From Deltaproteobacteria bacterium (GTDB taxonomy: Bacteria; Desulfobacterota; Desulfomonilia; Desulfomonilales; Desulfomonilaceae), in NCBI GenBank assembly GCA_016875095.1, contig VGSG01000001.1, positions 1-64,000 of the forward strand: a stretch of 64,000 nt of DNA, written 5' to 3'. Each line of letters opens with the position of its first letter. The first letter of the stretch is position 1. Below the pieces are notes generated by a model. That model saw only the letters and a list, made by a program, of their open reading frames with translations. It ran no database searches and was not told the origin of the DNA. Both the position numbers and the translations under genes were made by a program. Below, piece by piece: positions 40,564 to 45,740 of the stretch.

Positions 40564-41244
40564 TCAGTCGGGTCGATAGACGTGGAGGTGTTCGACAAGC
40601 GCCTCGGGCGCGACGAGGCGCACATTTGACGCAATGCCTTCCAAGTGCTGCCGGAGCGCCTGGTCACCGACTCCGGGCACGCCGTACGTCGTGAAAAGGA
40701 CGCGACGAGTTTTGTCGGTGATTCTGGTGCGACGGTCAGGCCCGTAGATGATACTTGATATGATTGCCTCGGCATCGGAGATGATCATGTCCCCTTGCTT
40801 GGTGATCTGTGTCTCGCCATTCAGTTTCACATAGGTCTCCTCGCCTGTGGCTACGCTGAGTGTCAGGGGGGGCGCTATAGCGTCCAGGTCGTGTCCGGCG
40901 GTGAGCAGCATATTATTCAGTTCCGCCATGAACATGGCCTCGACAAGAGCAGCGACAACAGGAATCGGTTTCCCTTTGAAGACCACCGACTCGAGCTGAT
41001 GGAGCACATGATAGCTTTTCTTGAAGCGCTTGTAATACTCCCGGTACGCCACAATGGGCCGGAGAGACTTAAGCTCCTCGGGACTACGGAAGAGGCTTCG
41101 GAGATCCTGTTCCAGTTCCTCTTTTCGTTTGTCCAGGGCCGCATGAGTCTTGGGATTGGAAACGTTGCTCATGGCCAAGGCGCCCATCAGCGCCCCTGGA
41201 TACATGCTCTTCCATGTGTCGGAGATAGTAAACATGGCGTCCAA
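40564..41244 (-). CDS. B3/4-domain protein (PheT editing-domain-like)
   Basis: The 226-residue protein resembles the stand-alone B3/4 domain of the phenylalanyl-tRNA synthetase beta chain. SVVFKGKPIPVVAALVEAM, LLTAGHDLDAIAPPLTL and TRITDKTRRVLFTTYGV are the family's typical blocks. Stand-alone members may bind tRNA, hydrolyse mischarged tRNA or bind a small ligand. It is followed by an acyl-CoA dehydrogenase on the same strand, which is unexpected for an editing protein. A role in metabolism cannot be excluded. Confidence 0.72.
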   Translation of the reverse strand: MDAMFTISDTWKSMYPGALMGALAMSNVSNPKTHAALDKRKEELEQDLRSLFRSPEELKSLRPIVAYREYYKRFKKSYHVLHQLESVVFKGKPIPVVAALVEAMFMAELNNMLLTAGHDLDAIAPPLTLSVATGEETYVKLNGETQITKQGDMIISDAEAIISSIIYGPDRRTRITDKTRRVLFTTYGVPGVGDQALRQHLEGIASNVRLVAPEALVEHLHVYRPD

Positions 41245-42599: not shown

Positions 42600-43955
42600 A
42601 TGCCCAACGCTGATGTGAAGGAATCCGATGGGGAGCAGGCGGCCTGCGTGTACGTCTTCTACGGGGACGAGTTCCTCGTGAAGGAAGCGGTTCAAGCGCT
42701 TATTGCTCGAAGTCTCGACTCGGATTTGCGCAACACGAATCTTATCGTCCTGGATGGAGGCTCTCTTCGTGTGGGAGATCTCGTGTCCCACGCGCTCACC
42801 CCTTCTCTCTTTCCCGGGCCACGAGTCGTCCTGGTGGAGCAGACTGCGCTCTTCATGGGCAAAGTCGAACGGAGCCACGTTCTGCAGAATCTTTTTGAAG
42901 CCTGGTCTCAGGAACGGCGCGACGCGGCTTTGACCGCGTTTGGGCGGCTTTTGGCCTTGAGCGGCATAGAGAGCGCGGCCGTGACTCGTGAGCCGGAATG
43001 GGTCCATGAAGTCGCAGGAGAAAAGCTCGACGCCGACCAAATGACTGCGCTCCAGCAAATCGCGCAGGCCTTTCTCGAGTCGGGCAAGCGAGTGGAGGGC
43101 CCAACTGATGAAGCCACGGTAGAAGAGCTGGTGAGCGGGTCGTTTCCTGAAGGAACAGTCGTCGTGTTCACAGCCGCAGCCATCGATCGACGGAAGAAGC
43201 TCGTCAAGGCAGTGGAAAAGCACGGCCGCTTGGTGGAATGCGCTGTGGGCAAGGACCGACGCGGAGTAGGTATGGAGAGGGCTTTCTTTGACCAGCGCGT
43301 CAGGGAAGAGCTTGGGAAGGCGAACAAGAAGATTGCGCATGGGGCTCTGGAGGCCATGTATGCGCGATGCGGCAAAGATATGCGACAACTCCATAGCGAA
43401 CTGGAAAAACTTGCAGCGTACCTCGGATCGCGGGTGGAAGTCACGAGGGCTGATGTGGAGGAGGTTTTCACTGATTTCCATGAATCAGTGTTCTACGAGC
43501 TGACGGGCGCGATTCGCGCGGGCGACCTGCCGCGGAGCCTGATAGCGCTCCATGAAAACCTGAGTGGGGGGGCTCATCCGTTGCAAATAGTGGCGGCAAT
43601 CGCCAATGAATTCCGACGCCTCACCGTGGCGCGAGAGCTGCTCTTCACCGTCTTCAGGCCTTATTGGAAGCCGGGGATGAGGTATGAGAGCTTTATAGAG
43701 GTCCTCGGGCAGGTGCGGGACGAGCGGCGCCCCAAGAAGAGCAAGGAGAAATTGGATCTCCTGGCGCTTAAGGAATACCCGCTCTATCTATACATGCGCG
43801 ACGCGCAGAGATTCCCCATAGACAAACTGATCGGCATCATGGAAGCGATTCTCGAAGCCGACGTAAGCCTCAAGTCATCTCGCCTGAGCAGGACCGCGCC
43901 CGGCGCCATCCTGGAGAACCTCCTTTTCCGAATCTGTCCTCCGTCGCGAACCTAG
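42600..43955 (+). CDS. holA: DNA polymerase III subunit delta
   Basis: HolA is the wrench subunit of the clamp loader that opens the beta clamp. VYVFYGDEFLVKEAVQAL at the start, KDMRQLHSELEKLAAYLG and DVEEVFTDF in the middle, and HPLQIVAAIANEFRRL near the C-terminal third are characteristic. At 451 residues it is about 100 longer than the E. coli protein; the extra length lies mainly in an insertion at about residues 85-165 and in a long segment before the C-terminal domain. No clear ribosome site marks the start at 42600. It is convergent with the TrpF homologue. Confidence 0.85.
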   Translation: MPNADVKESDGEQAACVYVFYGDEFLVKEAVQALIARSLDSDLRNTNLIVLDGGSLRVGDLVSHALTPSLFPGPRVVLVEQTALFMGKVERSHVLQNLFEAWSQERRDAALTAFGRLLALSGIESAAVTREPEWVHEVAGEKLDADQMTALQQIAQAFLESGKRVEGPTDEATVEELVSGSFPEGTVVVFTAAAIDRRKKLVKAVEKHGRLVECAVGKDRRGVGMERAFFDQRVREELGKANKKIAHGALEAMYARCGKDMRQLHSELEKLAAYLGSRVEVTRADVEEVFTDFHESVFYELTGAIRAGDLPRSLIALHENLSGGAHPLQIVAAIANEFRRLTVARELLFTVFRPYWKPGMRYESFIEVLGQVRDERRPKKSKEKLDLLALKEYPLYLYMRDAQRFPIDKLIGIMEAILEADVSLKSSRLSRTAPGAILENLLFRICPPSRT

Positions 43956-43957
43956 GC

Positions 43958-44689
43958 TCAGTGGATTTGGCGGAACGCTTCGTTTGCGGCCTGCGCGAAG
44001 GCTTTGATCCTATCGAAATTCCGTGAGCCGTCCTCATTTTCCACCCCTGAATGCGCATCCACACCCGCGGGACGGACTGTAAGAATAGCCTGAGCAACAT
44101 TTTCGGGGGTAAGGCCTCCTGCGAGAATGACAGGCGCTTTCGCAACCTTGACGATTAGCGCGCTTACGGCCCAATCGTGTGTGACGCCCGTGGCTCCAAG
44201 CCTGCCGGTTGCAGGATCGTACGAATCAAGAATAACCGCGTCCCAAAGAGGAGGCAGAAATAGGCCCACCATATCCACAGAGGATCGATCGATGACCGTG
44301 ACGCGGCCGATGGTCTTGACCGCGGGCACGGCGCTGCGGAAGCGCTCGAGTTCTTTTGGAGTTATTCCACCATGAAACTGTATGGCCTGGCCACGGACTT
44401 CTTGAACTAGAGCCGCAGCGTCCTGCGCAGTGTCGAGATACGTAATGACCACAGGAAGCACAACAGATGGGAGCGCCTCAATGATCCGCCGCGCAGTCGC
44501 CCGGTCAAGGCCGTCGTGGATGCCGGTGGGGAGTTCCAAGGTGAGGCCGAGCGCGTCCACTCCCACGGATGCGCAGAAGAGCGCCTCTTCCAGCGAAGAG
44601 ACTCCGGCCACCTGAATGCGGGGGGGCCAGGGCAGGCCGTGAGGAGCGCGATTGTTTCGGAGCGCGGATGGGTGATCGCAATTTCGCAT
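43958..44689 (-). CDS. TrpF-family (phosphoribosylanthranilate isomerase-like) protein lacking the catalytic Cys
   Basis: The TIM barrel is clear: GVDALGLTLELPTG, IQFHGGITPKELE, VILDSYDPATGR and VILAGGLTPENVAQA correspond to the TrpF strands with phosphate-binding loops. The catalytic Cys of the usual K-I-C-G motif is Ala28 (IQVAG) and the SPR-type Arg after strand 2 is missing, while the general acid Asp (ILDSYDP) is retained. It stands alone, with no other trp gene nearby. A change of function is therefore likely, or this is a relaxed paralogue; calling it trpF would be unsafe. Confidence 0.75.
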   Translation of the reverse strand: MRNCDHPSALRNNRAPHGLPWPPRIQVAGVSSLEEALFCASVGVDALGLTLELPTGIHDGLDRATARRIIEALPSVVLPVVITYLDTAQDAAALVQEVRGQAIQFHGGITPKELERFRSAVPAVKTIGRVTVIDRSSVDMVGLFLPPLWDAVILDSYDPATGRLGATGVTHDWAVSALIVKVAKAPVILAGGLTPENVAQAILTVRPAGVDAHSGVENEDGSRNFDRIKAFAQAANEAFRQIH

Positions 44690-44831
44690 AGGTTCGGTGA
44701 TGCGCTTGGAGGCCTATCGAGAGTAGACATGAGAATATAAATTCTTGAGCGGCAAAGCAAGAAGGGCTTGCGCAAAATAACGTGGAAGTAGTAAAAAAAG
44801 AGGTTAACGTAGGTCGGTCAGAGGTGCGTTG

Positions 44832-45740
44832 ATGGGAATTTTGGACTTGGTGGGAAACACTCCTCTCGTAAACATAGCTTTTCCGAACGGCGATGGGGCA
44901 GTGCGCATTCTGGGAAAGATGGAGGGCTGCAACCCAGGCGGTTCTGTCAAAGACCGGATCGCGTTTTATATGATCCGAAAGGCCGAGGAGGAAGGGCTGC
45001 TCACCCCCAATAAGATCATTCTGGAGCCCACTTCGGGCAATACGGGCATAGGGCTGTCGATGGTGGCCGCATGTCGAGGATTCCGTTGCCTGCTCACACT
45101 GCCGGAGTGCGTGAGCGTAGAAAGACGAAACACCCTGCGCGCGTATGGAGCGGAACTGGAACTCACCCCGCCGGAGTTGGCCACAGACGGCGCGATCCGT
45201 CGGGCGCACGAAATTTACAATGAAGCTCCCGAGCGGTACTTCATGCCGAATCAGTTCGAAAACATGTACAATGTGGAGGCCCACTATATGACCACCGGGG
45301 TTGAGATCCTGGAGCAGACCCGCGGGGATGTGGACGTTTTTGTGGCCGGCATGGGCACCACGGGCACGCTTATGGGTGTTTCTCGACGACTTAAGGAGCA
45401 CAACCCAAAGATCGTTATTGTGGGGGTCGAGCCGGTGGAGGGTCACGCGATTCAAGGGTTGAAGAATATGAATGAGGCAATTGTTCCTAAGATCTACGAT
45501 CGCTCCCGAGTTGATGAAATAATCCAGGTGAACGATGATCAGGCTTATGATACGGCTCGATGGCTTGCTCTCAGCCAGGGGATATTCGTCGGTATGAGTT
45601 CGGGAGCCGCGGTTTACGGAGCGATTCAGGCTGCCAAGAATCTCCGAAAAGGCTCGGTGGTGGTTATCCTGCCTGACCGGGGCGATCGGTACCTGAGCAC
45701 GACCTTATTTAAATCTATCTGTGCGAAGTGCCCTCCCTAA
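44832..45740 (+). CDS. Cysteine synthase-family PLP enzyme
   Basis: This fold-type II PLP enzyme has NPGGSVKDRIA with the PLP Lys near residue 40, EPTSGNTGIGLSMVAA with the PLP-ring Asn and substrate loop, GTTGTLMGVSRRL for the phosphate, and SSGAAVYGA at the C-terminal phosphate/pyridine site. It makes cysteine from O-acetylserine or a similar activated serine. CysK and CysM types cannot be separated surely by eye; its 303 aa fit both. The ATG at 44832 follows GAGGTGCG. No serine acetyltransferase gene is adjacent. Confidence 0.88.
   Translation: MGILDLVGNTPLVNIAFPNGDGAVRILGKMEGCNPGGSVKDRIAFYMIRKAEEEGLLTPNKIILEPTSGNTGIGLSMVAACRGFRCLLTLPECVSVERRNTLRAYGAELELTPPELATDGAIRRAHEIYNEAPERYFMPNQFENMYNVEAHYMTTGVEILEQTRGDVDVFVAGMGTTGTLMGVSRRLKEHNPKIVIVGVEPVEGHAIQGLKNMNEAIVPKIYDRSRVDEIIQVNDDQAYDTARWLALSQGIFVGMSSGAAVYGAIQAAKNLRKGSVVVILPDRGDRYLSTTLFKSICAKCPP

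Follow-up and report, generated by a model that had tools for sequence, protein, structure and literature searches.

Cys-less relatives of TrpF: a widespread family that probably acts in another role, on ribose phosphates or nucleotides

A TrpF-like gene without the catalytic cysteine

The window (the whole stretch of 64,000 nucleotides analysed here) carries on its reverse strand, at positions 43958–44689, an open reading frame that starts with ATG and encodes a protein of 243 amino acids. Based on the ORF call, the match to the phosphoribosylanthranilate (PRA) isomerase family PF00697 (PRAI; 67.7 bits, gathering cut-off 22.7), the position in a phylogenetic tree and a structural model, we describe it as a Cys-less, Ala-type paralogue of TrpF. 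The protein matched PF00697 only, with no match to PF00977 (His_biosynth; HisA/PriA) at E ≤ 0.001, in which it differs from HisA, PriA and AdeK, sharing with them a barrel of the phosphoribosyl isomerase type. Against the NCBIfam equivalog model NF002298 (cut-off 215 bits) it scored 116 and the canonical TrpF of its own genome 248.3; a haloarchaeal TrpF encoded in a trp operon, at 170.8, also fell below the cut-off.

At the place of the canonical RVKICG the window protein reads RIQVAG, so that lysine is replaced by Gln26 and cysteine by Ala28 (codons of Gln26-Val27-Ala28, in place of Lys-Ile-Cys, at 44606–44614, reverse strand like all codons given here). The arginine of the SPR motif, equivalent to Arg36, is absent, the segment there being LELPTGIHDGL. 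On the other side of the balance sheet, Asp155 (44225–44227) aligns with the LLDT/LLDS aspartate of canonical sequences and with the general acid Asp126 of Thermotoga maritima TrpF, and the GATG, AGGL and D-x-H-S-G motifs are retained, the first within GATGVTH (residues 165–171, 44177–44197), which comprises the phosphate-side loop and His171, and the last as DAHSG (residues 211–215, 44045–44059), which includes His213. The original prediction had named these features, i.e. an alanine for the catalytic cysteine, a missing SPR-type arginine, and an aspartate general acid and phosphate loops left in place. Alignment bore out each of them, and for the alanine so did the codons.

The gene converges on holA (DNA polymerase III delta; 42600–43955, forward strand), with which we infer no functional link, and diverges from a cysteine-synthase family gene of the CysK/CysM type (44829–45740, forward strand); as predicted, it lies outside any trp operon. 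The match of the HolA protein (451 amino acids) to its family model is split into three segments, as if there were an insertion behind residue 101 or thereabouts. A stand-alone B3/4-domain protein is encoded at 40564–41244, less than 5 kb away from the TrpF-like gene, and a look-alike, recognised by eye, lies within the same distance of that gene's counterpart in genome G013 (L105:1872–2543).

Canonical TrpF in the same genomes

A second PRAI match in the genome of the window (165.9 bits) has both K-I-C-G and SPR. It starts 29 bases after the end of a TrpC-family match, in a run that we read by eye as trpE-trpD-trpC-trpF-trpB-trpA-trpG and that is supported by TrpB, TrpD and TrpE matches. The second, canonical trpF that the original prediction proposed to look for is thus present, in a trp operon. 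The Cys-less protein was found in 7 of 18 genomes of the Desulfomonilaceae. Its orthologues in the six other genomes are 59–64% identical to the window protein and all have Q-x-A-G, which rules out chance or decay as the origin of the changed motif. In all seven carriers, moreover, there is a second PRAI match with K-I-C-G and SPR, with TrpB, TrpD and TrpE within 6 kb, and in none of them is the Cys-less gene the only trpF.

The strongest single result for a role outside tryptophan synthesis came from genome G287, a draft of about 80 contigs with an estimated completeness of 100%. Here the Ala-type protein is the only PRAI match, and neither a TrpC-family match nor a canonical TrpF was found; the organism is therefore apparently unable to make tryptophan, yet the Ala-type gene is kept. 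The TrpC search covered ten genomes (that of the window and nine of the 24 searched for PRAI), six of which had a match. No TrpC was found in the genomes G248, G644 and G332, which carry Tyr-type relatives (see below), completeness being shown for G248 only (97) and G332 having a second, unclassified PRAI match. G685 has TrpC and only a Cys-less PRAI match. Actinobacteria usually have TrpC and no canonical TrpF, provided that PriA takes over the step.

Two Cys-less clades

Further Cys-less proteins came to light in searches of 297 genomes from the phylum of the window, 251 from the phylum to which a Chloroflexota locus belongs, 296 from that of an Actinomycetes locus, and a plasmid collection. 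Five of the 251 genomes had matches at a strict threshold of 1e-45 and five of the 296 at 1e-42 (the centre genome counted each time), and so Cys-less proteins look sporadic in those two phyla. Three of these ten proteins (from G531, G605 and G751) keep the cysteine.

In a tree of 68 sequences, a phylogeny of Cys-less homologues having been proposed beforehand, two such groups were recovered, with support values that are rough because the bootstrap had not settled: an Ala-type clade of 18 sequences that includes the window protein (98/99) and a separate Tyr-type clade of 27 (100/99). The other 23 sequences are of the Cys type. Two sequences had been removed before the tree was built, L114 for being in the wrong frame and L145 for being truncated, and L072 was placed in the Tyr-type group by hand, the motif search having matched a false place. 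Represented in the Ala-type clade are the Desulfomonilaceae and further members of their phylum, together with two genomes of the Chloroflexota search and three plasmid gene clusters, from C. striatum, A. vitis and S. lavendulae. The three plasmid copies form a single clade (99/95), and thus stand for one recruitment. They share Q-x-A-G, His171 and VDAH with the window protein, to which they are 36–37% identical, and differ from it in being part of a biosynthetic cluster.

A conserved site on a TrpF fold

All 18 Ala-type sequences have Gln26, Ala28, Gly29, Tyr84, Gln104, His106 and Asp155, and also Gly165-Ala166-Thr167-Gly168, His171, Asp172, Ser176, Asp211, His213 and Glu217. Aspartate occupies the position of Asp155 in every one of the 68 aligned sequences. 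The Cys-type sequences have both the lysine and the cysteine throughout (23/23), serine at position 213 in 14 cases, and most commonly Phe (11) or His (5) at position 171. The Tyr-type proteins resemble the window protein in having Gln for Lys, no Cys, the aspartate and the phosphate loops, as well as His171 in 20 of 27 sequences, and differ from it in having Tyr at the cysteine position and VDS at strand 8.

T. maritima TrpF (1nsj/1lbm) is the best described point of comparison. Its catalytic residues are Cys7 and Asp126, Arg36 pairs with the anthranilate carboxylate, and His83 is named as a residue of the template that one design reconstituted (PMC2667513). The window protein shares with it the fold, PF00697, the acid aspartate, the phosphate loops and an equivalent of His83, which we take to be His106, within a QxHG segment. 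In contrast to the T. maritima enzyme, it has Gln for Lys, Ala for Cys7, no equivalent of Arg36 and no adjoining trp genes, while Tyr84, His171 and His213 are new invariant residues. That Gln26, Ala28, Tyr84, His106, Asp155, His171 and His213 are common to all Ala-type sequences suggests that the active site has been rebuilt and that the enzyme is not dead.

Not every departure from the textbook motifs has the same diagnostic value. The TrpF of the haloarchaeon Natronorubrum, annotated inside trpD-F-E-G, has HDW (for FDW) and no SPR, yet keeps Lys-Val-Cys-Gly, and for this reason neither HDW nor a missing SPR shows that PRA isomerase activity has been lost. We accordingly gave up HDW as a mark of the family; besides the haloarchaeal TrpF, HD occurs in a solved archaeal TrpF and His in 5 of the 23 Cys-type sequences. 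It is the loss of Cys and Lys that separates the families. The residue argument of the original prediction for a lost PRA isomerase is informative in the part that concerns these two residues and weak in the part that concerns SPR.

A structure predicted from the single sequence (pLDDT 42.9) was discarded. The model from an alignment of eight proteins reached a mean pLDDT of 86.4, with a mean of 56 in the loop 161–170. Placing residues by alignment and DSSP, we found Gln26, Ala28, Asp155 and His213 to lie in strands of the prediction, with Tyr84 and His106 each just past the end of one; His171 is the sole one of the seven invariant residues that is neither in nor directly after a barrel strand of the model. 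In a Foldseek search with the model, the top 11 matches were PRAI or PRAI fusions. The nearest fold is TrpF 1nsj (VIA Z 25.4, rmsd 2.1, 201 aligned residues, 29% identity), and among the matches listed the best one outside TrpF (Z 20.8) is level with the weakest TrpF, 7etx. HisA is absent among the 50 structure matches listed, which carries no weight.

Given that TrpF is the nearest fold and family, that Asp155 and the presumed His83 equivalent are kept, and that SPR can be absent from a TrpF of a trp operon, one might regard the window protein as a second TrpF that still isomerises PRA, His171 or His213 perhaps replacing the cysteine. This we consider very improbable: a canonical trpF sits beside trpB, trpD and trpE in all seven family carriers, G287 keeps the gene with neither TrpC nor any other TrpF match, and both Cys and Lys are replaced in 18 of 18 Ala-type sequences.

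Genomic neighbourhoods

In loci lacking annotation, gene names are a reading of the translations by eye, save where a profile supports them. The neighbours of Cys-less homologues, which the original prediction had suggested as a line of enquiry, set them apart from TrpF proper: trpB lies within 6 kb at none of 18 Ala-type and none of 24 Tyr-type sites, against 17 of 20 Cys-type sites, flanks being shorter at some (e.g. L004, with 129 bases downstream). No trp match was found at L163, with 214 bases on one side. The 24 Tyr-type sites are 23 of the 27 sequences of the tree plus L140 (L072, L079, L081 and L085 came without a longer stretch); Cys-keeping odd sequences (L053, L071, L077, L078, L129, L135 and L138) were left out of the count.

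Among the seven Ala-type sites of the Desulfomonilaceae, a cysteine-synthase gene is nearby at four (the window and three further loci, within 6 kb) and a GH57-like gene at five; no mechanism suggested itself, and these neighbours were set aside as a functional clue. No neighbours shared by G073, G203, G178, G227, G287 and G057 could be recognised by eye, and the window locus shows no nucleotide gene as an operon partner. Matches to PsuG (PF04227) or to nucleoside hydrolase (PF01156) were found in none of the 18 family genomes, some of them incomplete, and on this basis we rejected the idea that in the Desulfomonilaceae the window gene is tied directly to one of the two. Among further Ala-type relatives, the gene of G463 precedes purA.

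In each of the three plasmid clusters the Ala-type gene stands just before upp (uracil phosphoribosyltransferase, UPRT), and each also carries AMP-binding/NRPS, tautomerase, YeiN-type pseudouridine-5'-phosphate-glycosidase and EamA transporter genes, and they resemble minimycin clusters. The UPRT MinD and the transporter MinT have been described as self-resistance parts of minimycin producers (PMC8724604). A further copy, orf20 of a C. aurimucosum plasmid, was recovered in our plasmid search; a genome paper had already described it as homologous to PRA isomerase and as a neighbour of an indigoidine-like NRPS, the available part of that text reporting no activity for it (PMC2830990). Near the showdomycin cluster a trpF has been noted, and AdeK is described as a phosphoribosyl isomerase recruited into a nucleoside cluster (PMC13055916). 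The open-access literature matches listed include no paper on a Cys-less TrpF family.

These surroundings bring up an enzyme of C- or N-ribonucleotides, which would open or cleave a C-nucleoside 5'-phosphate (e.g. pseudouridine or minimycin 5'-phosphate) in repair or self-protection. It would fit upp and the EamA transporter directly after the gene in A. vitis and S. lavendulae, and the PsuG role that seems vacant in the 18 family genomes. On plasmids of Mesorhizobium and Aminobacter, a Tyr-type relative is found near genes for beta-RFAP synthase, SAICAR synthase and purH, and this too would fit. Such an enzyme is nevertheless rather unlikely for the window gene, since the plasmid clusters represent one recruitment only within the Ala-type clade, in C. 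striatum upp follows and the EamA gene is further off, and Desulfomonilaceae have no such context. To our knowledge there is also no biochemical precedent. The two plasmids just mentioned (L056 and L143), which carry BtpA/SgcQ genes as well, look like formycin-type C-nucleoside clusters.

At Tyr-type sites, genes for a PfkB kinase (8/24), nucleoside hydrolase (5/24), hisA and hisF (3/24), efp (3/24) and guaA (2/24) are found, counts that are descriptive and not a test, because the queries came from the same loci and two of the sites share L124. The count missed PfkB-type kinases beside L006 and L136, which were found in a separate check that also confirmed examples of the counted genes. Best NCBIfam models for the PfkB proteins include ribokinase and ribose-1-phosphate kinase, none passing its cut-off. 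Tyr-type genes with nucleoside-hydrolase context occur at L124 (3539–6252 and 6497–10572), L128, L137 (4521–7167) and L144 (8001–10578); in the Chloroflexota and Actinomycetota loci among them the gene adjoins a nucleoside hydrolase and PfkB (in L124 also BtpA), and in the haloarchaeal one there is a nucleoside hydrolase near it, together with what looks by eye like an ABC transporter of the nucleoside type. The link to nucleoside hydrolase and PfkB belongs to the Tyr-type clade and not to the Ala-type clade of the window. In three Chloroflexota his runs (L007:7995–8666, L008:7995–8684 and L009:7995–8669), the Tyr-type gene stands between hisA and hisF, with a purA match nearby.

An aldose-ketose isomerase of phosphoribose would share its class of chemistry with TrpF; it would turn ribose 5-phosphate or 1,5-bisphosphate into the corresponding ribulose compound and thereby supply or deplete the pools of PRPP and ribose. 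The nucleoside hydrolase and ribokinase-like or ribose-1-phosphate kinase-like PfkB genes beside Tyr-type genes point the same way, as do PRPP synthetase, upp and the YeiN-type gene of the S. lavendulae cluster. We see it as a possible, minority reading, given that the window locus has no comparable neighbours and that the PfkB assignments stay below cut-off; ribose-5-phosphate isomerisation in particular was demoted as a main role because RpiB is already present in the genome of the window.

Tyr-type genes are also found in rhizobial sugar loci, where they stand behind the gene of a regulator of the MurR/RpiR type. Taken with the loss of the catalytic cysteine, this could indicate a non-catalytic, phosphosugar-binding or regulatory protein. 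Such a role is improbable, as an Asp that has been retained and has newly invariant His and Tyr residues next to it is rather what one expects of a functioning active site.

A proposed function

The explanation we favour, though we put it no higher than an even chance as a whole, is that the window gene encodes an active, TrpF-derived (beta-alpha)8-barrel enzyme of ribose phosphates or phosphoribosyl compounds that is no longer a PRA isomerase. Its parts differ in strength. That the protein is catalytic is quite likely; a ribose phosphate or a nucleotide as its substrate is somewhat better than an even guess; and the roles given to individual residues are tentative. The switch to another phosphorylated substrate that the original prediction called plausible is supported as far as sequences go, and a new substrate is well motivated by the canonical trpF in its trp operon, the two Cys-less clades, the lack of trpB nearby and the case of G287.

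The mechanism that we propose starts from a TrpF fold in which the phosphate loops and the acid Asp155 have been retained and the canonical Lys, Cys and Arg lost, with Gln26, Tyr84, His171 and His213 now invariant. The kept loops would bind a 5-phosphoribosyl or ribose-phosphate compound and Asp155 may help to open the ribose ring. With the cysteine base gone, His171 and/or His213 would be the likely proton shuttle, and the reaction could be an isomerisation of the aldose-ketose type or a related one at the ribosyl bond. Its product may be a ribulose form, a free base or another compound. In Desulfomonilaceae, where the partners of the relatives are missing (as seen from the lack of PsuG and nucleoside-hydrolase matches), the role is perhaps a housekeeping step of nucleotide or ribose-phosphate metabolism.

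More broadly, Cys-less TrpF relatives are a widespread family that probably serves another function than TrpF, with ribose phosphates or nucleotides as substrates. A bolder version, which we regard as a long shot, sees in them an unrecognised family that cleaves or isomerises C- or N-ribonucleotides (e.g. a pseudouridine 5'-phosphate lyase unrelated to PsuG), recruited once for self-protection in minimycin-like clusters and serving housekeeping repair in Desulfomonilaceae. Cys-less proteins go under the name phosphoribosylanthranilate isomerase in public plasmid entries, a label that would mislead pathway predictions. The Ala-type and Tyr-type clades, which occur beside nucleoside, histidine and C-nucleoside antibiotic genes, also show a textbook barrel in which the catalytic cysteine has been swapped in two distinct ways while the acid and phosphate sites are unchanged, and since these are small single-domain proteins the question in enzyme evolution that they pose is directly testable.

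Further TrpF relatives

Four TrpF relatives have K-[IV]-C and HDW and lack SPR (L053:10004–10678, L129:4646–5329, L138:6409–7056 and L135:6810–7457). They form a third non-canonical group, which may likewise not be TrpF. Within the Tyr-type clade, L100, L101 and L102 encode longer proteins that have CDW in place of HDW; their genes adjoin efp and, in two of these three cases, guaA as well.
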